A stretch of DNA of 64,000 nt from Desulforamulus reducens MI-1 (lineage in GTDB: Bacteria; Bacillota; Desulfotomaculia; Desulfotomaculales; Desulfotomaculaceae). The DNA lies in assembly GCF_000016165.1 (NCBI RefSeq), contig NC_009253.1:3049484-3113483 (forward strand). The letters are read 5' to 3'. Below the pieces are notes generated by a model. The model was not told the origin of the DNA, did not search any database, and was given only the letters and a program-made list of their open reading frames with translations. Position numbers and translations under genes: made by a program. This document shows, piece by piece, positions 1,164-60,459 of the stretch (position 1 is its first letter; every line of letters starts with the position of its first letter).

Positions 1164-1213
1164 CGCCCCAACTAGACCCTATTATAAAGGTCCAGTTGGG
1201 ACGCCTTTGCCCC
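1164..1213 (-). promoter_or_regulatory. ANTAR-type attenuator in the glnA leader
   Basis: Read on the minus strand: a 5-bp stem GGGGC/GUCCC closes the hexaloop AAAGGC (1198-1213), fitting the ANTAR rule A at loop position 1 and G at position 4. Its 3' arm is part of the 5' arm of a 15-bp intrinsic terminator (1164-1203) followed by GUUUUUGUUUU. The two structures are mutually exclusive, as in known ANTAR antitermination leaders. The upstream first hairpin expected in this class is only weakly supported: CAATAGG at 1226-1232 could supply its loop. Confidence 0.75.
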
Positions 1214-1313: not shown

Positions 1314-1889
1314 CTACCTGTTAAGGGACGAAATTACCAATTGCGCCACCTTTGCCAGTGAACAACAACGGTCCATACTTACCTTTTGCATATACCGATG
1401 GGCTGTCTGTTCATTAAATCCTTTTTTCTCGATTAATAGACGTTTGGCTTGCTCGACTAAACGTTTTTCCTCAAGCTTTTTCTTTAATTTTTTGTTTTCC
1501 TCTTCCATTCTTACCATTCTTTTAAAAGTAGCCAGGGCCATTTCCAAAGTGACAATTAAATTGATATCATCCACGGGTTTAATTATAAAACCAAGTACAG
1601 AGGATACCTTTGCCTCTTCAAGTAACTCTCGGTGGCTAAAGGAAGTTACTAAAACCACTGCTGCCAAGTGATGTTCTTCAATGATTCTGGCAATTTCCAG
1701 ACCTTTACTACCCGGAAGTTCTCCTTCCATAAGTATAATATCCGGTTGGTTTTGAAAGGCTGCTTGCAACGTACTCCTGCCGTCCTCGGTCTCTGCAACA
1801 ACCAGGTAATCATTCTGCTGGAGTATATCTTTAAGCTTTTTTCGAAAATCCGGGTCGGGATCTGCCAGCAGTACACGCCTGCTAAACAT
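1314..1889 (-). CDS. ANTAR-domain response regulator (antiterminator, NitR-like)
   Basis: 191 residues: receiver-like domain (about 1-120), coiled coil (about 120-150) and C-terminal ANTAR domain (about 135-190, with the AKRLLIEKKGFNEQTAHRYM helix). ANTAR proteins bind paired RNA hairpins and prevent transcription termination. The receiver is atypical: the position of the phosphoacceptor Asp (after IIL-M) is Glu55, while the conserved Lys (Lys104, IIKP) is present. It lies directly upstream of glnA and its attenuator, the arrangement described for clostridial nitrogen regulators. No histidine kinase gene is nearby. Start ATG 1889 follows GGAGTG. Confidence 0.9.
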   Translation of the reverse strand: MFSRRVLLADPDPDFRKKLKDILQQNDYLVVAETEDGRSTLQAAFQNQPDIILMEGELPGSKGLEIARIIEEHHLAAVVLVTSFSHRELLEEAKVSSVLGFIIKPVDDINLIVTLEMALATFKRMVRMEEENKKLKKKLEEKRLVEQAKRLLIEKKGFNEQTAHRYMQKVSMDRCCSLAKVAQLVISSLNR

Positions 1890-2077: not shown

Positions 2078-2133
2078 CAGGGGCAATGGCGCCACCTGTT
2101 AAAAGGTATTGAAATTACCTTTAGCAGGTGGCG
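2078..2133 (+). promoter_or_regulatory. ANTAR-type attenuator in the asnB leader
   Basis: CAGGGGC (2078-2084) pairs with GCC-A-CCTG (2091-2098, one bulged A) around hexaloop AATGGC (2085-2090), which has A1 and G4. The 3' arm is also the 5' arm of an intrinsic terminator: CGCCACCTG (2090-2098) with CAGGTGGCG (2125-2133), an inner AAAGGTA/TACCTTT stem and the U-tract TTTCTTTT. Same logic as the glnA leader. Confidence 0.7.
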
Positions 2134-4913: not shown

Positions 4914-5813
4914 TTAAATAAGATTAGGACTTACGGCATCAAACTCTCGGGATCGGTCATCACTTAGCAGACCAATGGCATCGGCCCGACACTGCTTGCA
5001 ATGACGCATTTGTTGCAAATCAATCTGGCACAGATCCCTCATTTGATTGAGTTCCTTCATATTTGTTGAGGGGAGCTTGGCAAAAACAGTGCCTTCCACT
5101 GGAATAAGTGGCATAATATTGCTCATAAAGGCCCCCAGTTGTTTAACTTTTTTGACTACCTCGGAAATCTCCTGGTCATTGATGCCTTTAATCATAACAA
5201 TGTTGACTTTAACCAAAACACCCTGCCCAGCCAGATACTGGATACCCGTTAATTGATTTTGCAATAAAATCTTGGCCCCTTCAATGCCAGTATATTTTTT
5301 CCCTTGGTAATGAACAAATTGGTAAATTTTTGCCCCCGTTTCTGGGTTTACAGTATTCATCGTCACGGTTACATGCTTGATACCCAGCTTAACGATTTCC
5401 GGAGCATAATGGGGCAACATTAATCCATTGGTTGATAGGCAAAAGATCATCTCTGGATTTGATGCTTTGATACGTTCAATGGCTTCCCGTGTACTTTCCC
5501 AATTGGCCAGGGCATCGCCCGGTCCGGCAATCCCTACCACACTCAGATTGGGAAATTTCTCTTTAACCACAATAAATTTTTGTTGAGCCAATATAGGTGT
5601 TATCACCTGGCTGGTAACCCCTGGTCTGCTTTCATTGGTGCAATCATATTTGCGGTTACAGTAATTGCAGCCGATATTGCATTGGGGAGCCACCGGCAGA
5701 TGCATGCGGGCATACTTATGATGAGCTTCCCTGGAATAGCAAGGGTGCTTGCTGGTTTGCTCCATTAGTTTCGTTGATTGGTTATTGTTAGTTTGATTGC
5801 ATAAGCATGACAT
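4914..5813 (-). CDS. nifB: nitrogenase cofactor biosynthesis radical SAM protein NifB
   Basis: Makes the NifB-co precursor (8Fe-9S-C core) of FeMo-co. The radical SAM motif CNIGCNYC (CxxxCxxC) lies near residue 45, followed by NRKYDC, GIAGPGDALAN and the C-terminal HCKQCRADAIG cluster-binding block. About 300 residues: the radical SAM core without the NifX-like C-terminal domain found in many proteobacterial NifB proteins. The start is uncertain: ATG 5813 overlaps the end of nifN by 26 bp and has a weak GTGG site, and an in-frame GTG lies at 5825. Confidence 0.95.
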   Translation of the reverse strand: MSCLCNQTNNNQSTKLMEQTSKHPCYSREAHHKYARMHLPVAPQCNIGCNYCNRKYDCTNESRPGVTSQVITPILAQQKFIVVKEKFPNLSVVGIAGPGDALANWESTREAIERIKASNPEMIFCLSTNGLMLPHYAPEIVKLGIKHVTVTMNTVNPETGAKIYQFVHYQGKKYTGIEGAKILLQNQLTGIQYLAGQGVLVKVNIVMIKGINDQEISEVVKKVKQLGAFMSNIMPLIPVEGTVFAKLPSTNMKELNQMRDLCQIDLQQMRHCKQCRADAIGLLSDDRSREFDAVSPNLI

Positions 5814-7227
5814 GCTGTTCACCACAACTTTCTGTAGATAATTCCTGACCTTCTTGCTCCCCTTGATAGAACATTTGGTACATGGAATCCCGATAATTTT
5901 TATGTTTATTTTCTAGCAGGGTATTAGTTACCCGGTCTAAGAACATGGTAGTACCTGCATAGCAAATTGATAGTAGGCGCTGCCCTCCTGTCCGATCAAG
6001 AATGGGAAATCCGTATCGAACCAAGGGAATTCCCTCCCTTTCAGTAAGATACTTGCCATCTGAGGAACCGATGGCAATGTTGGCCTTTCCCCTGCTTTTT
6101 AGTCGAATAGTAGTAAAATCGGTCTCCGTTAAGACGGTACATTCTATTGGAGCATTGGCTAAACATTCATCCAGCAACTGGGCAAGTTTTAGGTTTTTAC
6201 TGCCGGTCGCCACCACCACAGGGTGAATGCCATTCTCGATGCAAGTTTTCACAACACCATAGACATTTTCAGGTTCTCCATAGATAACACTGCGTCCCTG
6301 ACCATTGTACTTGTGAGAATCAATCATACAATCCAGAAGCCTGCCCCTTTCCTGCTCCAAGCAAGTTGGCAAAGGGTTGCCCGATAACTCTTGCAATACA
6401 TTCATAAATAAATCGGTGTTTTCAATTCCCATGGGCAGGGGTAAATTATAAAGCGGTACACCAAACTCCTTTTCTAAGTATTTTCCTGGTGACATACTGT
6501 CATCCACCGTGAGACCCAGTTGGATGGTAGCAACAGCTCCACCCATGGCTGCAATATCGGCTAATTTAGTGCCTCCTTCAGGCATTTTTTTATAAGGTCT
6601 TTCATAGGGGCGGTCCATGGTATCAGAAAAATCGGGTAACAAGATGTATTCCATCTGCATCAGTTGTAGAACACGCTTGATCTCCCGGATATCTGCCGGG
6701 CTAATGTTGGGAACTATGACATTTATTTTGTTATGAGTTTCTGTTTTACGGGCTAGTTTAGCAACAATTTTTTTCAGTGTTAACCAGTATCCTTCACTGT
6801 GAGTGCCACCGTAACCGGGTGTGTTGACTGTTATCACCGTTAAGTCCCCATAGTCTCTTTCTGTTAAATACTCTTGACTGATCCTGCCAATATCTTCGCC
6901 AATGGTTTCTGCCAAACAAGTTGTCAGGATGCCGATCACCTTGGGCTGGTAGGCTTTGATGATATTGTCCAGACCTTTTTTTAAATTTTGTTCTCCTCCA
7001 TAAATGGTGCCTTTTTCATTTAAGGAGGAAGAGGCTACATCGACGGGTTCATTAAAATGCTCTGCCATATGCCGCCTCATGTAAGTGGCGCAGCCCTGGG
7101 AACCATGAATAATCACCATACAATGCTCTAAACCCTTTAAGACCAGGATGCCACCCATGGGCATACACATATTACATGGGTTTTCATTGACATCTCGGAA
7201 ATTCGCTCCACTTTTTCCCCTATCCAT
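5788..7227 (-). CDS. nifN: nitrogenase cofactor scaffold subunit NifN
   Basis: 479 residues. Beta-type scaffold partner of NifE, on which FeMo-co is completed. Seen: NPCNMCMPMGGI, the HGSQGCATYMRRH block, LTTCLAETIGEDI and a nitrogenase component 1 fold throughout; it resembles NifK but is flanked by nifE and nifB, as expected for NifN. ATG 7227 follows AAGGAGGG. It overlaps the nifB start by about 26 bp, suggesting translational coupling. Confidence 0.9.
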   Translation of the reverse strand: MDRGKSGANFRDVNENPCNMCMPMGGILVLKGLEHCMVIIHGSQGCATYMRRHMAEHFNEPVDVASSSLNEKGTIYGGEQNLKKGLDNIIKAYQPKVIGILTTCLAETIGEDIGRISQEYLTERDYGDLTVITVNTPGYGGTHSEGYWLTLKKIVAKLARKTETHNKINVIVPNISPADIREIKRVLQLMQMEYILLPDFSDTMDRPYERPYKKMPEGGTKLADIAAMGGAVATIQLGLTVDDSMSPGKYLEKEFGVPLYNLPLPMGIENTDLFMNVLQELSGNPLPTCLEQERGRLLDCMIDSHKYNGQGRSVIYGEPENVYGVVKTCIENGIHPVVVATGSKNLKLAQLLDECLANAPIECTVLTETDFTTIRLKSRGKANIAIGSSDGKYLTEREGIPLVRYGFPILDRTGGQRLLSICYAGTTMFLDRVTNTLLENKHKNYRDSMYQMFYQGEQEGQELSTESCGEQHVMLMQSN

Positions 7228-7242
7228 AGACCTCTTCCCTCC

Positions 7243-8595
7243 TTATACATATTTCCAGACTGGTGAACAAAGGGTGGTATAAACCTCTTTGGCTAGGTTT
7301 ACTGCTCCCACAAAACCACTCAAGGGATGCTTTCGGTCATGATTATGGTCAATAAAGGCAACACCCAATTTGTAAGCCAAAGGTCTTTCTTTAACGCCTC
7401 CCACCAACAGGTGAGCTCCCTTATCCACCATAAACTTTTCTAATTCTGTCGGATTCGCATCATCCAAAATAATGGTTCCGTCATCCACCAGATCATTAAT
7501 GGTTTCGTATTCTTCCTTTCGTCCGGTTTGCGTTCCGATCATGACAACATCAATACCAATTTCTCTAAACTGTTTGACCAGGGAGATAGCCTTAAACCCT
7601 CCCCCTACGTAAATAGCGGCTTTTTTACCTTGCAACCTTTGTCGATACCACTCTAACTCGGGCTCAACCCGAACTGTTTCCCGCTGCACCAACTTTTCTA
7701 CTTGGGACATCATATCTTCATCGCCAAAAAAAACAGCAATCTTTCGCAGGGAAGCGGTCGTATCCTGCAGACCCAAGAACGAAATATTAAAGTAGGGAAT
7801 CTTATAAAGTTCCTTCATTCGTTCAGCCATATAGATCATAGAGCCAGCACACTGAATGATATTCACAGATGCATGGGTGGCATTTTTTAATGCCTGATAT
7901 TTTGAGTCGCCGGTAAAGGCCACATTTACGTTAACCCCAATTTCCTTGAGGTAGTTTTTTATAATCCATACCTCTCCGGCCAGGTTGAAATCACCTAGAT
8001 AATTCAGCGTATTTTTTTTCTGGGCAACTTTGGCATTATCCCTTTGAATAAGTCGAAGTAACGCATCACAGGCGGCCCGGTACCCTGCCGATTTATTTCC
8101 GGCAAAGCCGCTGGACTGCACCGGAATCACCTCAATTTGGTGTTTATCAGCAGCAGCCTTACAGACGGCTTCCAGATCATCCCCAATCACCCCGACAATG
8201 CAGGTGGCATAGACAAAAACTACTTTGGCAGGATGCTTTTCAACCAATTCATCAATGGCCCGAGCTAATTTCTTTTCACCACCGAAAATGACATCCTGTT
8301 CTTTCAGATCAGTGGAGAAACTGTTCCTGTACAAGTCAGATCCACTGCTGAGACTCCCCCGGATATCCCAGGTATAGCTGGCACAGCCAATAGGACCATG
8401 AACCAGATGGATGGCATCAGTAACCGGGTTTAGAACAACCCTGGCCCCACAGTAAACACAGGCTCGCTGGCTGACACAACCGGCAACACTGTCTGTGTCA
8501 CACTTCAGTTGTTTCTTCTGTTTTCCCTTGGTGATGATGGAATCTTCCCTTTCTTGAAAAACCGTATCCTGCAATACTGCTTCCCGCACATCCAT
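7243..8595 (-). CDS. nifE: nitrogenase cofactor scaffold subunit NifE
   Basis: Alpha-type scaffold subunit for FeMo-co assembly, partner of NifN. Motifs: CVSQRACVYCGARVVLNPV, HGPIGCASYTWDIRG, DVIFGGEKKL, YATCIVGVIGDD and QCAGSMIYMAE (Cys equivalent to the NifD cofactor-ligand region). About 450 residues. The start is uncertain: ATG 8595 is very close to AAAGGAG, and the GTG two codons on has better spacing. Fifteen bp separate it from nifN. Confidence 0.93.
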   Translation of the reverse strand: MDVREAVLQDTVFQEREDSIITKGKQKKQLKCDTDSVAGCVSQRACVYCGARVVLNPVTDAIHLVHGPIGCASYTWDIRGSLSSGSDLYRNSFSTDLKEQDVIFGGEKKLARAIDELVEKHPAKVVFVYATCIVGVIGDDLEAVCKAAADKHQIEVIPVQSSGFAGNKSAGYRAACDALLRLIQRDNAKVAQKKNTLNYLGDFNLAGEVWIIKNYLKEIGVNVNVAFTGDSKYQALKNATHASVNIIQCAGSMIYMAERMKELYKIPYFNISFLGLQDTTASLRKIAVFFGDEDMMSQVEKLVQRETVRVEPELEWYRQRLQGKKAAIYVGGGFKAISLVKQFREIGIDVVMIGTQTGRKEEYETINDLVDDGTIILDDANPTELEKFMVDKGAHLLVGGVKERPLAYKLGVAFIDHNHDRKHPLSGFVGAVNLAKEVYTTLCSPVWKYV

Positions 8596-8662
8596 CACTC
8601 CTTTCAAACTTATAATGAGTTGGAACAGGAGGCCAGTAACCTGCCTCCTTGTTCAGTTTTCG

Positions 8663-10054
8663 TTACATTACCAACTCAAAATCTTCATCCTTGGCATCTC
8701 TGTCTTGCCGCTCCAGCAACGCATTGCTGATCATTTCAAGCAAGCGCATGGCGCCTTTGTAACCTACCACCGGCAGGTAAGAGTGTACACTTCTGTCCAG
8801 AATGGGGAAGCCCAGACGAACCAGTGGAATATCTTCCGCCCTGGCAATATATTTGCCATAGGTATTGCCAATCAAAAGATCAACGGGTTCATTCTTGATC
8901 CATTGGTGCAATTCAAAAAGGTCACCCGCTGCCTTTACTCTTCCTTCTACACCAGCATCTTTTAACATGCTCTTCACTTCATCCTCAAAGTTTCCTACCA
9001 TAGTACCAATGGCCCCCCCGCTACCAGGAGTACCCGTTAATACATGGATGGGTATCATGCCCAAGCTTAAGACAAATTCGGTCATGGCAATAACAATATC
9101 TGGATCGCCAAAGATGGCAACTTTTTTGCCGTGGAAGTGGAAATGGGTATCGGTCATGATGTCCACCAACTGTCCCCGCTCCTCTTCCAATTCATAGGGA
9201 ACATCTACAGTAAACTTGTTCATTAATGCCATTAAAAACTCGTCAGTGGCCTTGATGCCAATGGGTGTCTTCAGGGTTACCGCAGGAACCTGGCATTTTC
9301 TATCCAACTGGTTGGCAGCATCGGATGAAGCATAGCTACCCAAGGCTAGGGTTACTTTAGAATTCCCTGTATCAATGAGTTCCGGTACGGTGGTTCCACC
9401 CTTGGGAAACATTTCATATTTACCGGTCATCGGGGTATCCACAACCCCGGTAGTATCTGGGAACATAATAAACGGAATCCCCATGGTCTTGACAATTCTT
9501 TTAATTTCTCTCATGTCCCCAGGGTTAACAAAACCTGGAATTACATTAGCCTGTTCTTTTTTTGTTTCCAGAGAAGCTTCAGATAGGTAGTTGACCATAC
9601 CCTTCGTCATATTGGAAAAGCCTGTTACGTGGGAACCTTGATAACTGGGTGTATTAGCATGAATAACCAGTTTACCCTCGGGGACTTCCGATGTCCGAAT
9701 AAAGGTTGGCAAATCATCCCCAATGGTTTCGGATAGACAGGTCGTATGCACTGCCATAATATCTGGATTATAGATGGCAAATACGTTTTTTATGGCTGTT
9801 TTTAAGTTGGCACCGCCACCAAATACAGAGGCACCTTCGGTAAAGGAACTGGTCGAAGCCATAATGGGATCACGAAAATGCCGGGACAGGTGCATACGGT
9901 GATAGGAGCAACATCCCTGGGAACCGTGGCTGTGGGGCAAGCACCTGTGGATGCCCAGCGCAGCATACATGGCTCCAATGGGCTGACAAGTTTTAGCCGG
10001 GTTAATCATGCCGCCAGTACGTTTTCTAATTTCTTTCGGTGTGCAATCTAGCAT
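8663..10054 (-). CDS. nifK: nitrogenase MoFe protein beta subunit
   Basis: About 463 residues, the short form lacking the roughly 50-residue N-terminal extension of proteobacterial NifK, as in Clostridium pasteurianum. P-cluster cysteines are seen in KTCQPIGA, HGSQGCCSYHR and TTCLSETIGDD. ATG 10054 is preferred (8 nt after GGAGG); an in-frame ATG at 10063 sits directly on that site. It overlaps nifD by 7 bp. Confidence 0.96.
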   Translation of the reverse strand: MLDCTPKEIRKRTGGMINPAKTCQPIGAMYAALGIHRCLPHSHGSQGCCSYHRMHLSRHFRDPIMASTSSFTEGASVFGGGANLKTAIKNVFAIYNPDIMAVHTTCLSETIGDDLPTFIRTSEVPEGKLVIHANTPSYQGSHVTGFSNMTKGMVNYLSEASLETKKEQANVIPGFVNPGDMREIKRIVKTMGIPFIMFPDTTGVVDTPMTGKYEMFPKGGTTVPELIDTGNSKVTLALGSYASSDAANQLDRKCQVPAVTLKTPIGIKATDEFLMALMNKFTVDVPYELEEERGQLVDIMTDTHFHFHGKKVAIFGDPDIVIAMTEFVLSLGMIPIHVLTGTPGSGGAIGTMVGNFEDEVKSMLKDAGVEGRVKAAGDLFELHQWIKNEPVDLLIGNTYGKYIARAEDIPLVRLGFPILDRSVHSYLPVVGYKGAMRLLEMISNALLERQDRDAKDEDFELVM

Positions 10055-11667
10055 TTTGAGCATCCTCCTTCCTCAATGGTTCCTTCTATAATTGGTTTGT
10101 TTTTCCAGGGCGGGGTAGTAAAATTCCAGGTGGGTGAAACAAAACCCATGGCCACATCCTCCGCAAATTTCACTGCACCCTTAAAGCCTGCATAGGGACC
10201 ACTGTAATCATAGGAGTGTAATTGTTTAGCCGGAATGCCCATTTTTTGTACAATATATTTATCTTTAATACCAGACGCAAAGATATCCGGCTTTAACAGT
10301 TTGATAAATTCTTCGGTTTCATAGTGATTCAGGTCATCTACAATGACATGGCCTTCCTTCATCTCCACATTCATTCCTTTGTAATAACTCAAAGGAATTT
10401 GTTTTTTCAGTTCTTCCATCCGTTCCGGTGAGATTTTTAGCTTAAATCTTCTCTGATCCGGTTCTACCTGCAGGTTAGGAATGTTTTTAGTATCTGCATC
10501 CAATTTGATTTCAGGGATGATCTCTCTGCCCTCGTAATCATCCCTGTGAGCAAACTCATAACCTGCCAGAACGGTTTCGATCCCAAGTTCTGCAAACAAC
10601 CCCTGATAATGGTGACCTCTGGAGCCCCCCACGAAGCAAAAGGCAGTCTTTCCTTCACATATTTTTTTGTATTGATCAATGACCGGCTCAATTTCCGCCA
10701 GTTCCCTGGCAATGACCTCTTCGGTCTTGCGGATTAATTCTGGATCACCGAAATAAAGGGCCATATTTCTCAGGGTATCAATGGTAGACTGAATCCCAAT
10801 AAAGTTTACTTTCAACCAGGGTGTACCATATTTGGTTTCCAGCATTTCTGCAATATAATTGATCGAACGATGGCACTGAACCAGGTTTAACTCAGCCACA
10901 TGGGCATTTTTTAAATCTTTATAGGAGCCATCACCGGTCATTACCGAAATAACGGTGTAGCCGATTTCTTTTAGTACTCGCTCAACCTCCCAACTATCGC
11001 CACCGATGTTGTATTCTCCCAGCATGTTAATGGGATACTTGCCAGGAGATTCTTCCCAATCTCCCTGGCCGATGACCCTATCCATCAAAATATTGTTGGC
11101 AATATGATGACCCGCTGACTGGCTAACACCTTTGTAACCTTCACAGTTAAAGGCCATCACCGGAACACCATGTTTTTCTTCAGCTGCCTTGGCCACGGCG
11201 TTCAAGTCATCCCCAATCAGCCCCACCGGGCAGGTGGCTGAGACGGTAATGGCATTGGGCTTAAAGATCTCCACAACATCATCAATCATTCTAGCCAGCT
11301 TTTTCTCCCCACCAAAGACAATATCACTTTCCTGCATATCGGTAGAAACGCAGTAAGTAAGGAAATTCTTCTTGGGGTCCTCGGATACTGCTTTGTTGCG
11401 TCGGGTTAACCATGAATAGTAACCACAACCAATGGGTCCATGGGTGATGTGCACAATGTCTTTCAGCGGACCCAACACAACACCTTTACATCCAGCATAG
11501 GCACAGCCGCGGTTGGTAATAATTCCTGGAACGGTTCTAGTGTTAGCCTCGATTTCTTGACGGGCCTGCTCCGGATCCCTAATGACAATATGTTTCTTAC
11601 GATTTCTCTTTACTTTTGCCGGGTATTGACTAAAAATCTCCTCCAGCTTTTTTTCATCAATGGCCAC
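10048..11667 (-). CDS. nifD: nitrogenase MoFe protein alpha subunit
   Basis: Binds FeMo-co and half of the P-cluster. Cofactor ligands are visible: Cys in NLVQCHRSINY and His in QLHSYDYSGPYAGFKGA. P-cluster Cys are in RGCAYAGC, HGPIGCGYYSW and SATCPVG. CEGYKGVSQSAGHH carries the Gln and His near the cofactor in the Mo-enzyme pattern rather than the iron-only one. A roughly 50-residue insertion after GYEFAHRDDYEGRE is the clostridial type. GTG 11667 is chosen as start because GAGGAGG lies 8 nt upstream. Confidence 0.96.
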   Translation of the reverse strand: MAIDEKKLEEIFSQYPAKVKRNRKKHIVIRDPEQARQEIEANTRTVPGIITNRGCAYAGCKGVVLGPLKDIVHITHGPIGCGYYSWLTRRNKAVSEDPKKNFLTYCVSTDMQESDIVFGGEKKLARMIDDVVEIFKPNAITVSATCPVGLIGDDLNAVAKAAEEKHGVPVMAFNCEGYKGVSQSAGHHIANNILMDRVIGQGDWEESPGKYPINMLGEYNIGGDSWEVERVLKEIGYTVISVMTGDGSYKDLKNAHVAELNLVQCHRSINYIAEMLETKYGTPWLKVNFIGIQSTIDTLRNMALYFGDPELIRKTEEVIARELAEIEPVIDQYKKICEGKTAFCFVGGSRGHHYQGLFAELGIETVLAGYEFAHRDDYEGREIIPEIKLDADTKNIPNLQVEPDQRRFKLKISPERMEELKKQIPLSYYKGMNVEMKEGHVIVDDLNHYETEEFIKLLKPDIFASGIKDKYIVQKMGIPAKQLHSYDYSGPYAGFKGAVKFAEDVAMGFVSPTWNFTTPPWKNKPIIEGTIEEGGCSKC

Positions 11668-11693
11668 TTGCTGCACCTCCTCTAGCTACTGAT

Positions 11694-12074
11694 TTAAATG
11701 GCTATCTCTCCCTGCTCGCCGGTTCTCACTCGAACAGCACCCAAGACTGGTCCTACGAAGATTTTGCCATCTCCTTTGTGGCCTTCCTTATTGACCTCAA
11801 TAATGGCACCTACAACCTTTTCCACTTCATCATCATGGACCAATATGGTTAACAGGCGTTTAGGAATTAAGCGAGCCCCTTCTGACAAGCCATCGGCTAA
11901 AATCCCACCAATTTCTTCTTTGTTTCCTAACTCATTGATGATATAGAAGTCCACCTTCATTTTTCCCCTTCCCATTACCTTCATGGCATGCAGACCGCAA
12001 ACACCAATCTCCGATAGGGCTTTCTTCGTAACATTAACCTTATTCATCCGAATAATTGCAATGATTTCTTTCAT
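11694..12074 (-). CDS. nifI2: PII-family nitrogenase regulator NifI2
   Basis: 126 residues, PII fold (C-terminal GDGKIFVGPV). With NifI1 it forms a complex that binds and inhibits dinitrogenase when 2-oxoglutarate is low (known for methanogens). The T-loop is long and lacks the uridylylated Tyr context. Its position between nifH and nifD is diagnostic for NifI proteins of archaea and anaerobic bacteria. 12 bp from nifI1. Confidence 0.95.
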   Translation of the reverse strand: MKEIIAIIRMNKVNVTKKALSEIGVCGLHAMKVMGRGKMKVDFYIINELGNKEEIGGILADGLSEGARLIPKRLLTILVHDDEVEKVVGAIIEVNKEGHKGDGKIFVGPVLGAVRVRTGEQGEIAI

Positions 12075-12086
12075 AGATTCATCCCC

Positions 12087-12416
12087 CTACAGGCCTTTTG
12101 TGCCACTGCTAATGGTATAAGCTTCCTCCACAGGGGTAACAAAAATTTTACCGTCTCCGAAGGCTCCTTTTTTGCCGGTTTTGGCATACTTGGATACGAT
12201 ACTGATAACATCATCCTTATCCTTTTCCTCCTGAACCACCAGCATCAACATTTCCTTGGGAATTTCGTCGTAGACAACTTCCCCAACCTTTACACCCCGC
12301 TGCTTACCACGGCCAACCACATCCATTTTCGTTACGGCAGGAAATCCGGCACTGTTTAACTCCGCTAAGATAATATTAGACTTTTCTGGTCTAACGATTG
12401 CTCTGATCATTAACAT
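12087..12416 (-). CDS. nifI1: PII-family nitrogenase regulator NifI1
   Basis: About 109 residues, PII-like: MIRAIVRPEK at the N-terminus, T-loop region VGRGKQRGVKVGEVVYDEIPKE without the canonical RGAEY, and GDGKIFVTPVEEA. Partner of NifI2 in post-translational nitrogenase switch-off. ATG 12416 follows AAGGAG with 8-nt spacing; an upstream GTG at 12425 is less likely. Confidence 0.95.
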   Translation of the reverse strand: MLMIRAIVRPEKSNIILAELNSAGFPAVTKMDVVGRGKQRGVKVGEVVYDEIPKEMLMLVVQEEKDKDDVISIVSKYAKTGKKGAFGDGKIFVTPVEEAYTISSGTKGL

Positions 12417-12450
12417 CGAATTCACTCCTTGAATTTCAATTAATCTTGGA

Positions 12451-13272
<822 letters not shown>

Positions 13273-13307
13273 TCATTCCTCCTGTTTTAGGTTTTTAAAA
13301 AAAGACC

Positions 13308-13347
13308 AGGCCGCTGGAACCTATAAATTCCAGCGGCCTCAACGCCA
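13308..13347 (-). promoter_or_regulatory. nifH-proximal attenuator (terminator 2 with alternative hairpin)
   Basis: Minus strand: AGGCCGCTGGAA / TTCCAGCGGCCT (13339-13308) followed by GGTCTTTTTTT is a complete intrinsic terminator only about 40 nt ahead of the nifH start. Its 5' arm overlaps an alternative small hairpin GGC[GTTGAG]GCC (13346-13335). The loop has G at position 4 but G, not A, at position 1, so it departs from the ANTAR consensus. Confidence 0.65.
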
Positions 13348-13397
13348 AAACACTCCATTGTATATAGGGAGGGTATTGTCTTAGTTAAAATACAAAA

Positions 13398-13429
13398 CGC
13401 CGGTTCTATAAGAACCGGCGCCCTCGCCA
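13398..13429 (-). promoter_or_regulatory. nifH-distal attenuator (terminator 1 with alternative hairpin)
   Basis: Minus strand: CGCCGGTTC / GAACCGGCG (13420-13398) followed by TTTTGTATTTT, within the nifH leader. The 5' arm overlaps an alternative hairpin starting with TGGC (13429), TGGCG[AGGG]CGCCG, i.e. a tetraloop stem competing with the terminator. Confidence 0.6.
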
Positions 13430-13464
13430 TTTGTCATTTGATACTACAACGTATCTTTTAAATT

Positions 13465-13500
13465 GATTTAGATTATAGCAAATCAATTAGGCTATATCAA
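13465..13500 (-). promoter_or_regulatory. promoter of the nif operon
   Basis: Minus strand TTGATA, exact 17-bp spacer, TATAAT. It lies about 200 bp upstream of nifH, so the transcript crosses both attenuators. No sigma-54 -24/-12 element was seen here, unlike proteobacterial nif promoters. Confidence 0.65.
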
Positions 13501-13568
13501 TGGGTTTACTCTATGAATACAGTACACTTTTTACTAAAGCAAATTATTTTAGAACCAGTTTCTTAAAA

Positions 13569-13614
13569 GGGGCTGTTTGCACAAGAACCATTCGGTTCAT
13601 TGTGCAACAGCCCC
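13569..13614 (-). terminator. terminator of the oxidoreductase operon
   Basis: Minus strand GGGGCTGTTGCACAATGAACC pairs, with one bulged base, with GGTTCTTGTGCAAACAGCCCC around GAAT, followed by TTTT. It separates this operon from nif. Confidence 0.85.
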
Positions 13615-13660
13615 TTCACTTTTTTCAATTTTAAGTCAATCAATTGGTGTAGATTTATGC

Positions 13661-27019: not shown

Positions 27020-27034
27020 GCAATGATCGTGCCA
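27020..27034 (-). promoter_or_regulatory. sigma-54 promoter of the symporter operon
   Basis: Minus strand TGGCACG-ATCA-TTGCA: -24 GG at 27033-27032 and -12 GC at 27021-27020, 10 nt apart, an essentially perfect consensus. About 120 bp before the symporter start. Confidence 0.9.
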
Positions 27035-27199: not shown

Positions 27200-28948
27200 C
27201 TATTCCTCAACGGAGATACCCAGAGCCCTAGCTTTACGTAATAAAGTAGAATGGGCTACACCCAGCGCATCTCCAGCACGCCTCAAACTTCTATATTGTT
27301 TCAAGGCCTTTACGATTAGCTCGCTTTCAACCTGTTCTCTGGCCTCCTTTAAAGGAATGATCTCATCAATGGATATTTGCAGAGGACTGGTTGATGGTTT
27401 GCCAAAAAATGTTGGAGGCAATTGATCTGGGTAAATGGTTTCCTGTTCTGACATAATTATCAACCGTTCCACCAAATTAGCCAGTTCTCTGATGTTGCCG
27501 GGCCAAGGGTACTGCTCAAAAAGTTTGAATACTTCGGAAGAAAAAAGTCTGTGAAAGTTATATTTATTGTTAAATTTTTCTAAAAAATGCATGCTTAGAG
27601 GCAAAATATCACTTTTTCGTTCTCGTAGGGGTGGAATATGAATGGGTACAACATTCAAACGGTAAAACAAATCTTCCCTAAATTTCTTTTCTGCAATCAT
27701 TTGCTCTAAATTTTTATTAGTGGCAGCAAGAATACGTACATTTAATTTAACAGCAGTTCGTCCTCCAATGCGGTAAATTTCCTGCTCTTGAAGGGCTCTC
27801 AGCAACTTAACCTGGAGGTTCAAAGGCAAGTCCCCTACCTCATCCAGCAGCAGTGTACCCCCGTTGGCCAATTCCATCATACCGGGTTTTCCTTCTTTAT
27901 TGGCTCCGGTAAAGGCTCCCTTTTCATAACCAAATAGTTCCGATTCTAAAAGGTGTTCAGGAATAGCGCCACAATTTATTTCAATAAAAGGCCCCTCTGC
28001 CCTGGGGCTGTTGCGATGAATGGTCCTGGCAATCACTTCTTTTCCCACTCCGGATTCACCTGTAATCAACACGGTTGAATCCACCTCAGATACCCGTAGG
28101 GCCTTTTTTACAACCCGTTCCATGGCAGTGTCGTGAAAGATCAAATCCTTTTGGTTCTTAGTCCGTAAGGATTTTAATTCCTCGGAATACCGAGCTGATT
28201 GCAGCCTTAATTGGTTTAACTCTGTGAAGTCATGTAGGCTGATCACCACATGAACCGGGCTGTTTTGATCATCTAAAATAGGTGAACCAGTAATGGTCAA
28301 CTCACTGAGATTCTCTCCCTGATAACGGGCAAAGGCCACTTTTCCCTGTTGCATAACCTCTTGAAACACTTTTATCACGTCGTCGTGACAGTCAAGGGGT
28401 ATCTGTTCCAAGGAAGTTCCTGCAGGGTCATGGGAGGAATCCTGCAGTCTAAAATAACTGCTGTTGACCATTTGAACAACTCCTTGGCTATCCACCACAA
28501 TGATCCCATCATAGGAAGCCTCAATGATGCTTCTAAGCCTTTGATTGGTTTCAAAGGCTTCAGCCAATTTATCCTCGGTATTTTCCAAGGCCCTATGAAC
28601 TTTATTGATGAGATCAATTCTTGTTAAGACCCCTGTTAGTTTCTGCTTTTGATTAAAGATTACAAGTCGATCGATGGGTTTATGACAGATTTCACTAAAG
28701 CAGGTATCTTCATCAATAATCTGCAAGTTACGATCCATAACCACATCCACACGGGTTGCAAAGGTTGCTCCGTTTTCTAAGGCCTCCAATAACCGAAAAA
28801 CGGTTAAGATTCCCACCACATTGTTTTCATCATCAACAATGGGAGCACAGTTCACTTTAGTTTGTTTATAGACCTCACTGGCATCTCGCAGTGTTTTACT
28901 ACGATGCAGCGTCCGAGGATTCTCTAACATAACCTGCTTAACTTTCAT
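27200..28948 (-). CDS. sigma-54-dependent activator with CBS and PAS domains
   Basis: About 582 residues. Two CBS domains (about 1-120, often bind adenosyl ligands), PAS domain (about 125-235), AAA+ domain (about 270-500) with Walker A GESGVGKE, the sigma-54-contacting GAFTGA and Walker B GGTLLLDEVGDLP, and a Fis-type helix-turn-helix at the C-terminus (RRAGDALGVAHSTLLRKARAL). ATG 28948 follows GGAGGAGA with good spacing. It lies between two sigma-54 promoters that share four matching palindromes, so it is the likely activator of both the symporter operon and gcvH. Confidence 0.93.
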   Translation of the reverse strand: MKVKQVMLENPRTLHRSKTLRDASEVYKQTKVNCAPIVDDENNVVGILTVFRLLEALENGATFATRVDVVMDRNLQIIDEDTCFSEICHKPIDRLVIFNQKQKLTGVLTRIDLINKVHRALENTEDKLAEAFETNQRLRSIIEASYDGIIVVDSQGVVQMVNSSYFRLQDSSHDPAGTSLEQIPLDCHDDVIKVFQEVMQQGKVAFARYQGENLSELTITGSPILDDQNSPVHVVISLHDFTELNQLRLQSARYSEELKSLRTKNQKDLIFHDTAMERVVKKALRVSEVDSTVLITGESGVGKEVIARTIHRNSPRAEGPFIEINCGAIPEHLLESELFGYEKGAFTGANKEGKPGMMELANGGTLLLDEVGDLPLNLQVKLLRALQEQEIYRIGGRTAVKLNVRILAATNKNLEQMIAEKKFREDLFYRLNVVPIHIPPLRERKSDILPLSMHFLEKFNNKYNFHRLFSSEVFKLFEQYPWPGNIRELANLVERLIIMSEQETIYPDQLPPTFFGKPSTSPLQISIDEIIPLKEAREQVESELIVKALKQYRSLRRAGDALGVAHSTLLRKARALGISVEE

Positions 28949-29100
28949 TAAATTCTCCTCCAAAACAAAAGACATCGTTAGCATTCCTAATTATAACCTT
29001 CAGTTTACCATAAGATAAAACAAAAAGGCTATGCATGGAATGATAACCATGTCTTTGAATGAAGTCAATTTTAGAGGTACGTCATAATGCAATTACTACT

Positions 29101-32261: not shown

Positions 32262-32384
32262 AAAACTCTCCGTCCCTGAAAGGGACGGAGAGTTAATCCG
32301 CGATACCACCCAAATTGGCATAATAGCCCACCTCTACAAGGTACAGGAAATGACACGTACTAAATAAAAAAGCATTTCATCCTC
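32262..32384 (-). promoter_or_regulatory. second T-box expression platform without Stem I
   Basis: Minus strand: GGGTGGTATCGCGG antiterminator (T-box sequence) then terminator AACTCTCCGTCCC/GGGACGGAGAGTT with a TTTTTATTTTTT tract. About 120 nt, too short for a Stem I, so it duplicates only the stem III, antiterminator and terminator modules. Confidence 0.85.
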
Positions 32385-32645
32385 GAAGGGACGAAATGCT
32401 TGATTTCGCGGTACCACCCTAATTGCTTAAATGCCGCTTAAAAGTACGGGATGTGTCACATCCGATACCTCTTCCCTTTTAACGGCGGGAATCCCCGGCT
32501 ACACCTACTAATACAAACCTTCAGCACAGCAACTCCGGAGAGAACTTCAATCAACCATACCTTAAAGAAGCTTCCAGTCTGTGGCTTCTTCTCCCTGAAA
32601 GGCTGGGACTAATCTACTTTTCTCCATCATTGTCATTAACTTTTA
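32370..32645 (-). promoter_or_regulatory. T-box leader (tRNA-responsive), complete
   Basis: Minus strand: AGTAGA loop at the Stem I base (about 32618), long Stem I, then GGGTGGTACCGCG (T-box) and the terminator AAGCATTTCGTCCC / GGATGAAATGCTT with TTTTTT. It senses an uncharged tRNA. The specifier was not fixed with certainty; a UGG (Trp) at 32557-32555 would fit the downstream TrpX-like gene, but AUU and GAU also lie in the candidate loop. Confidence 0.93.
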
Positions 32646-59270: not shown

Positions 59271-59322
59271 GTGCCCTCTGGTATAAGGCGAACTAACCTT
59301 ATGCCAGAGGGCACCTTTGCCC
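59271..59322 (-). promoter_or_regulatory. ANTAR-type attenuator between the PII gene and amtB
   Basis: Minus strand: GGGC[AAAGGU]GCCC hairpin (59322-59309), hexaloop with A1 and G4. Its 3' arm enters a terminator with 18-nt arms, GTGCCCTCTGG-C-ATAAGG and CCTTAT-A-CCAGAGGGCAC (59314-59271), followed by TTTTTGTTCTT. CAATAGG (59340-59334) upstream also occurs in the glnA leader at the matching place. Confidence 0.75.
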
Positions 59323-59737: not shown

Positions 59738-59811
59738 AAGGCTCAATGTCCGTTAATTCCGGTCATTGAGCCTTCGTTGGCCTTTATGTTTGGGGTACGC
59801 CTTCGTTCCCC
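59738..59811 (-). promoter_or_regulatory. ANTAR-type attenuator in the leader of the second PII gene
   Basis: Minus strand: hairpin GGCC[AACGAA]GGCU (59782-59769), hexaloop A1 and G4, overlapping the 5' arm of terminator AAGGCTCAATG / CATTGAGCCTT (59774-59738; U-tract weak: ATTTATT). Upstream, GGGGAACGAAGGCGTACCCC (59811-59792) forms a hairpin whose loop includes the same AACGAAGGC string, a plausible first hairpin of the pair. Confidence 0.65.
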
Positions 59812-59883: not shown

Positions 59884-60459
59884 TTAAATACCCATTTCAT
59901 TGGCTGTTATAATTGCTTCGGCCACCGCTTTTATGTTTGTTCTCTTCTTCATGGCAGCCTGCTGAATGGCTTTATGGGCTTGTTCCTCGGTAAAACCCCT
60001 TTGCTTCATCAGAATACCCTTGGCCTTTTCGACAACTTTTCTAGCCTTTAAAGTATTTTGCAATTCGTTAAGTTGTTGTTGCAATTGGAGAAAACGCTTA
60101 TGAGAGGATGCCGCTGCTTCAACCGCTGCGTAAACCTGGTCCTCCAGATAGGGTCGCATTAAAAAAGCAGAGATTACATCCCTGGCCCTTTCCACCAGGG
60201 CCTTATTGCCCTGGGAAACCATCAAAACCACAGGAGCTAAATTCTCTTCGGTTATGATTTTCGCTACCTGCATACCATCCAGGGCAGGCAGGTAATCATC
60301 CAGTAAAACAACTTCCGGCATTGTGGATCGTATAGCTTTCAGCGCATTCATACCGCTTGTTGCCTCTGCCACCACAGGGTAACCCAAGCGTGTCAGCATT
60401 TGCCTTAACTGAGATAATTCTGCTTTATCACCGCTAGCTATCACAAGCCTTCTGTCCAT
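59884..60459 (-). CDS. ANTAR-domain response regulator, second copy
   Basis: 191 residues: receiver-like domain (1-120), coiled coil (about 118-140, LQLQQQLNELQNTL) and ANTAR domain (KVVEKAKGILMKQRGFTEEQAHKAIQ, motif about 140-165). Asp54 (VVLLDD) is kept, but the acidic pair near the N-terminus is Ser9-Gly10 and the conserved Lys is Arg102 (LMRP). So classical phosphorylation is doubtful. It sits just upstream of the two attenuators before glnK and amtB, its likely targets. It lies 14 bp behind alr. Confidence 0.9.
   Translation of the reverse strand: MDRRLVIASGDKAELSQLRQMLTRLGYPVVAEATSGMNALKAIRSTMPEVVLLDDYLPALDGMQVAKIITEENLAPVVLMVSQGNKALVERARDVISAFLMRPYLEDQVYAAVEAAASSHKRFLQLQQQLNELQNTLKARKVVEKAKGILMKQRGFTEEQAHKAIQQAAMKKRTNIKAVAEAIITANEMGI

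Follow-up and report, generated by a model that had tools for sequence, protein, structure and literature searches.

A probable tandem ANTAR antitermination switch ahead of nifH, part of a nitrogen regulon, in Desulforamulus reducens

We analysed a 64,000-nucleotide stretch (the window) of the closed genome of Desulforamulus reducens MI-1 (3,608,104 bases), in which nifH leads a cluster of nitrogenase-type genes that all run in the same direction (Table 1). The original prediction placed a TTGATA-17-TATAAT promoter, and then two complete intrinsic terminators, ahead of nifH, and this arrangement was confirmed by both sequence scanning and folding. The TTG and TGnTATAATC of the promoter are kept across an alignment of nine leaders. 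Terminator 1 has a folding energy of -20.5 kcal/mol (z -5.6) and terminator 2 of -24.7 kcal/mol (z -7.2); the leader as a whole folds with z = -4.9, and none of 200 shuffles was equally stable. Between a ferredoxin-like gene and the nifH promoter lies a further strong inverted repeat (13566-13616; GGGGCTGTTGCACAATGAACC...GGTTCTTGTGCAAACAGCCCC, then TTTT), which is probably the terminator of the oxidoreductase operon upstream of nifH.

Table 1. Features of the nifH leader, related leaders and ANTAR genes (window positions unless a genome or locus is named)
Feature	Position	Strand	Basis or remark
nifH, first gene of the putatively controlled cluster	12451..13269	-	TIGR01287 above cut-off
PII-like nifI pair and nitrogenase-type genes (nifD, nifK, relatives, radical SAM), downstream of nifH	4914..12425	-	ORFs, named by recognition only
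Ribosome site AGGAGG	13283-13278	-	ahead of nifH start at 13269
Terminator 2 (intrinsic)	13308..13339	-	14 bp stem, loop 4, tail GGTCTTTTTT; compensatory changes
P2b hairpin TGGC-GTTGAG-GCCG	13334..13347	-	overlaps terminator 2; folding and descriptor scan
P1b hairpin ATAC-AATGGA-GTGT	13350..13363	-	loop with A1 and G4; thermodynamically weak alone
Terminator 1 (intrinsic)	13394..13424	-	14 bp stem, loop 3, tail GTATTTTAAC; compensatory changes
P2a hairpin TGGC-GAGGGC-GCCG	13416..13429	-	overlaps terminator 1; G1-C6 can close, giving a tetraloop (TGGCG-AGGG-CGCCG)
P1a hairpin GATAC-GTTGTA-GTATC	13440..13455	-	stem invariant in nine family leaders
Extended -10 sigma-70-type promoter TTGATA-17-TATAAT	13472..13500	-	TG before -10; 11/12 positions matched, top in the stretch
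GTGTACTGTATTCAT, nearly invariant 15-bp element, candidate DNA operator	13513..13527	-	12 nt upstream of the -35 box
glnA-family leader: P2 (GGGGC-AAAGGC-GTCCC) and terminator	1166..1213	-	by eye; G-T pair kept it out of the strict scan
asnB leader: P2 (GGC-AATGGC-GCC) and terminator	2082..2133 (match at 2085)	+	P2-terminator descriptor
Between glnK and amtB: P2 (GGGC-AAAGGT-GCCC) and terminator	59271..59322 (match at 59318)	-	P2-terminator descriptor
glnK leader: P1 (GGGGAAC-GAAGGC-GTACCCC, one mismatch), P2 (GGCC-AACGAA-GGCT) and terminator	59739..59811	-	P1 by eye; P2-terminator descriptor match at 59778
ANTAR1, ahead of two glnA genes	G000:C1 about 3,046,903-3,047,583; L057 6904-7584	-	PF03861 search
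ANTAR response regulator 2 (ANTAR2)	1314..1889	-	PF00072 and PF03861; phospho-acceptor D to E
ANTAR response regulator 3 (ANTAR3), adjoins glnK-amtB-glnK	59884..60459	-	PF00072 and PF03861

The leader contains two complete modules in tandem, each made of a P1 hairpin, a P2 hairpin and a terminator, in the order P1a-P2a-T1-P1b-P2b-T2. That the TGGC stems share the 5' arms of the terminators had been noticed before and holds true, and the stem drawn with a tetraloop can also be read with a hexaloop. However, only the P2 hairpin at each terminator had been seen; the P1 hairpins upstream, the decisive half of the ANTAR target layout, had been overlooked. As set out by Ramesh et al. 2012 (PMC3369931), that layout comprises P1, P2 and an overlapping terminator. 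The nifH leader has the two hairpins, with stems of at least 3 bp, six-base loops and a variable linker, and an intrinsic terminator overlapping P2. P1b is the weak one (-0.2 kcal/mol on its own) and was accepted because its TAC-loop-GT core is conserved. When a full-layout descriptor (P1, P2 and overlapping terminator, with G4 and a purine at position 1 in both loops) was run over both strands of the 64 kb, it returned both nifH modules plus a single weak match within nifD; shuffled windows gave a mean of 0.53 matches, and 0.03 strong ones. Among 3000 dinucleotide-shuffled versions of the leader, one contained a module. Rfam searches at gathering and relaxed thresholds gave nothing credible on the nifH leader. 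The sole Rfam match in the window is a T-box leader (RF00230, 110 bits) at 32384-32639 on the minus strand, upstream of an ABC-type substrate-binding lipoprotein gene.

The same layout is present in all eight other leaders of the family that were examined. Comparing related nifH leaders for covariation had been proposed as a check, and the terminators do compensate: their sequence varies while pairing is kept (94% of cells paired in the nine-leader alignment), with 9 of 22 pairs changed on both sides and none of 500 shuffles as good. The P1 and P2 hairpins, in contrast, are nearly fixed in sequence across the nine leaders, so that covariation within the family is uninformative for them; across genera their pairs show some two-sided changes, which lend modest support. 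Fixed hairpins beside terminators that conserve only pairing would be expected where the hairpins are recognized by a protein and the terminators need no more than their pairing. For covariance models, module types a and b were treated separately, since spacer length caused a joint alignment to misalign P2. Within the genome of D. reducens both models recovered the nifH modules only, plus the ANTAR1 leader weakly (E 0.01); other matches failed the full descriptor and were rejected.

We also examined the loop bases, because the original prediction had doubted an ANTAR target on the grounds that the loops do not fit the A1 rule. That is correct for three loops: position 1 is A only in P1b (AATGGA) and G in P1a (GTTGTA), P2a (GAGGGC) and P2b (GTTGAG), so neither module has A1 in both hairpins. 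As a reason to doubt ANTAR, however, it carries less weight, since it was judged from the P2 loops alone; the P1 hairpins complete the motif, and G4 is present in all four loops and in every loop of all nine leaders (four loops each), in an alignment that was not selected for G4. In the structure of EutV with RNA, G4 is the sole base-specific contact and A1 is uncontacted, although A1 may serve against cross-loop pairing (PMC8934654). Because of this missing contact, and because A1 is only >50% conserved in actinobacteria (PMC8164766), we did not treat A1 as strictly defining. Relatives carry A1 at sites where the D. reducens nifH loops have G1, and therefore A and G appear to interchange in evolution. 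The most doubtful loop is P2a because its G1 and C6 can pair; cross-loop pairing and tetraloops were suggested to be disfavoured by the EutV structure paper (PMC8934654). Target searches that require A1 could thus overlook real ANTAR sites.

The nif cluster is not alone in having such a leader. Since the covariance models were too nif-specific, the regulon was mapped by descriptor. A search for P2 plus terminator gave exactly five matches in the window, before asnB, glnK, amtB and, twice, nifH, compared with 0.075 matches per shuffled window, and all five stand ahead of nitrogen genes. Just outside the window, the ANTAR1-glnA-glnA operon has three near-canonical modules, one per gene, one of them with G1 in its P1 loop, and the module ahead of ANTAR1 is retained in most of the relatives tested. 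The best reading of these sequences is a nitrogen regulon to which nif would belong.

Across the order, modules stand ahead of nifH in most genomes that carry nif (30 loci). The majority of these loci pass the strict P2-terminator scan, some distant matches being weaker than the family set, and three (L005, L008 and L020) pass the full-layout descriptor. The exceptions are L018, where the contig ends, and L022, where a PII-like gene immediately precedes nifH. Among 80 nifH leaders of a wider named set, 11 matched, against 0 of 80 control stretches inside nifH. Clear matches came mostly from Desulforamulus, Peptococcaceae, Dethiobacter and other Bacillota MAGs; nearly all nifH leaders from Clostridium, Sporomusa, Desulfovibrio and methanogens in this set were negative. 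Two genomes bear on the regulator. G034 has ANTAR modules before nifH and, by Pfam search, a single ANTAR protein, an ANTAR1 homolog adjoining glnA. In G022 (96% complete; locus L023), ANTAR-like modules precede nifH and an ANTAR protein was not found.

The two ANTAR proteins previously counted proved too few, as the genome of D. reducens encodes four (PF03861), the best candidate lying just beyond the window. The fourth gene adjoins genes for a EutP-like GTPase and a histidine kinase, and its product is probably an ethanolamine regulator. Residues contacting the hexaloop, with roles taken from the EutV structure (PMC8934654), were placed on the ANTAR proteins by manual counting along the alignment. 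ANTAR1 keeps an aromatic residue at the Tyr164 site as well as Met172, Asn173 and Arg175, but not Arg168 or Arg177; ANTAR2 and ANTAR3 retain fewer of these residues. In ANTAR2 the phospho-acceptor position is occupied by Glu (ILMEGELP), a residue that could imitate constant activation. Because its hexaloop residues are the best kept and the only ANTAR protein of G034 is its homolog, we infer that ANTAR1 is the likeliest regulator of the nif leader. ANTAR1 does not qualify as a canonical two-component regulator: all seven complete receivers of Desulforamulus ANTAR1 have His or Gln in place of the phospho-acceptor Asp (the G034 homolog, from another genus, keeps the Asp), and no kinase gene was seen beside ANTAR1. 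Such a candidate must be controlled without the usual phosphorylation, probably through a partner protein, in the way that AmiC governs AmiR, or through its own abundance.

Taken together, these comparisons make it highly probable that nifH is preceded by a tandem ANTAR antitermination switch belonging to a nitrogen regulon. Transcription would start just 3' of the TATAAT box, and unaided polymerase would halt at one of the two terminators. Under a shortage of fixed nitrogen, an active ANTAR dimer would bind P1 and then P2 in each module; the bound P2 would hold the terminator 5' arm, so that polymerase could pass both terminators and transcribe nifH and the genes behind it. The off state should be tighter with two modules in series. 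A switch of this kind is also predicted before asnB, glnK, amtB and the glnA genes, and ANTAR1, itself behind such a module, may be subject to positive feedback. We counted as hints against an ANTAR switch the G1 in three of four loops, the tetraloop option of P2a, the weak P1b, the G022 genome and the indication of initiation control considered next.

The original prediction had proposed control of elongation rather than through sigma-54/NifA, and the part on elongation is well supported. Excluding initiation control altogether goes too far, since GTGTACTGTATTCAT, a 15-bp element with almost no variation, lies upstream of the -35 box. Its first 13 bases are invariant in 9 of 9 leaders, and one position differs in the whole 15-mer. 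Conservation so near the -35 box makes a second layer of nif control, at initiation, possible. It is unlikely, however, that a DNA-binding factor on this element is the main control and the leader modules only fine-tune: although the element hardly varies and exists in the genome as a single exact copy, it has no known factor, inspection by eye did not reveal it in nifH leaders from other genera with ANTAR modules, and two strong terminators would still block nif in the absence of antitermination.

Far less probable is that another RNA-binding antiterminator, or direct ligand sensing of the riboswitch or T-box type, acts on the hairpins while the ANTAR proteins function elsewhere. Such a factor would fit the three hairpins whose loops start with G, and the potential tetraloop, but dual hairpins with a terminator and G4 are the ANTAR signature, versions with A1 and G4 precede the ANTAR1-glnA operon of the same genome, and the leader matches no Rfam family, the window's one match being the T-box at 32384.

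Control of nif is usually taught as a matter of sigma-54 and NifA, and here the claim that neither operates on nif is supported. The NifA family (TIGR01817) exceeded its curated cut-off in 0 of 60 genomes, and no -24/-12 match with at most two mismatches lies between 12176 and 14767; the pairing of a nifA gene with a sigma-54 promoter before nifH was thus not found. Elsewhere in the window there is a CBS-PAS sigma-54 activator gene (27200-28984) and, between it and a symporter gene, a perfect -24/-12 match (27020-27034, minus strand). That sigma-54/NifA controls nif and the leader is irrelevant is very improbable, since this activator, the one feature in its favor, scores far under the NifA cut-off (340 vs. 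529 bits) and adjoins its own perfect site ahead of the symporter gene, while the conserved promoter of nifH is of the sigma-70 type.

Returning to the ANTAR switch, we tentatively suggest, as a specific version that is itself rather doubtful, that nif in this genus is run by an ANTAR protein that works without phosphorylation (Asp to His or Gln), reads six-base loops beginning with G and takes its activity state from a metabolic partner (glutamine synthetase or PII, for example), and that a DNA-binding factor at GTGTACTGTATTCAT acts alongside it.

Among known ANTAR regulators, AmiR and NasT have a receiver-like domain controlled by a partner (AmiC and NasS, respectively) and not by phosphate. 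They are thus a model for ANTAR1, although no AmiC or NasS homolog was identified here. EutV/EutW of Enterococcus faecalis likewise combines a receiver-ANTAR protein with a dual hairpin, P2 within the terminator 5' arm, and several terminators per operon (PMC3369931, PMC8934654). As described there, however, EutV has a partner kinase and the phospho-acceptor Asp, in contrast to ANTAR1, and the nifH-leader loops differ in having G1. NitR of Clostridium acetobutylicum, another anaerobic Firmicute, is likewise an antiterminator protein with ties to the assimilation of ammonia, but its description involves an antisense RNA and not nif (PMC4676874). Our literature search on ANTAR with nifH or nif in Clostridia found no experimental study. 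The closest precedent is Ramesh et al. 2012 (PMC3369931), which predicted ANTAR control of nitrogenase units in Pelobacter carbinolicus and of nitrogen metabolism in Desulfotomaculum acetoxidans; for D. reducens, its main text names only glutamate-synthase loci. The regulons presented there resemble this one, with P1-P2 hexaloop hairpins and overlapping terminators before nitrogenase, PII, ammonium transporter and GS/GOGAT genes, and several modules per unit. However, the model of that study required A1 and G4 in both loops, whereas the nifH loops here mostly have G1. A conserved elongation-level nif switch, present through much of this order of anaerobic Firmicutes, would fill in an outline predicted in 2012; new relative to that main text are the specific nifH-leader member, the loops departing from the A1 rule, a candidate regulator without the phospho-acceptor Asp and the nearly invariant 15-bp element.
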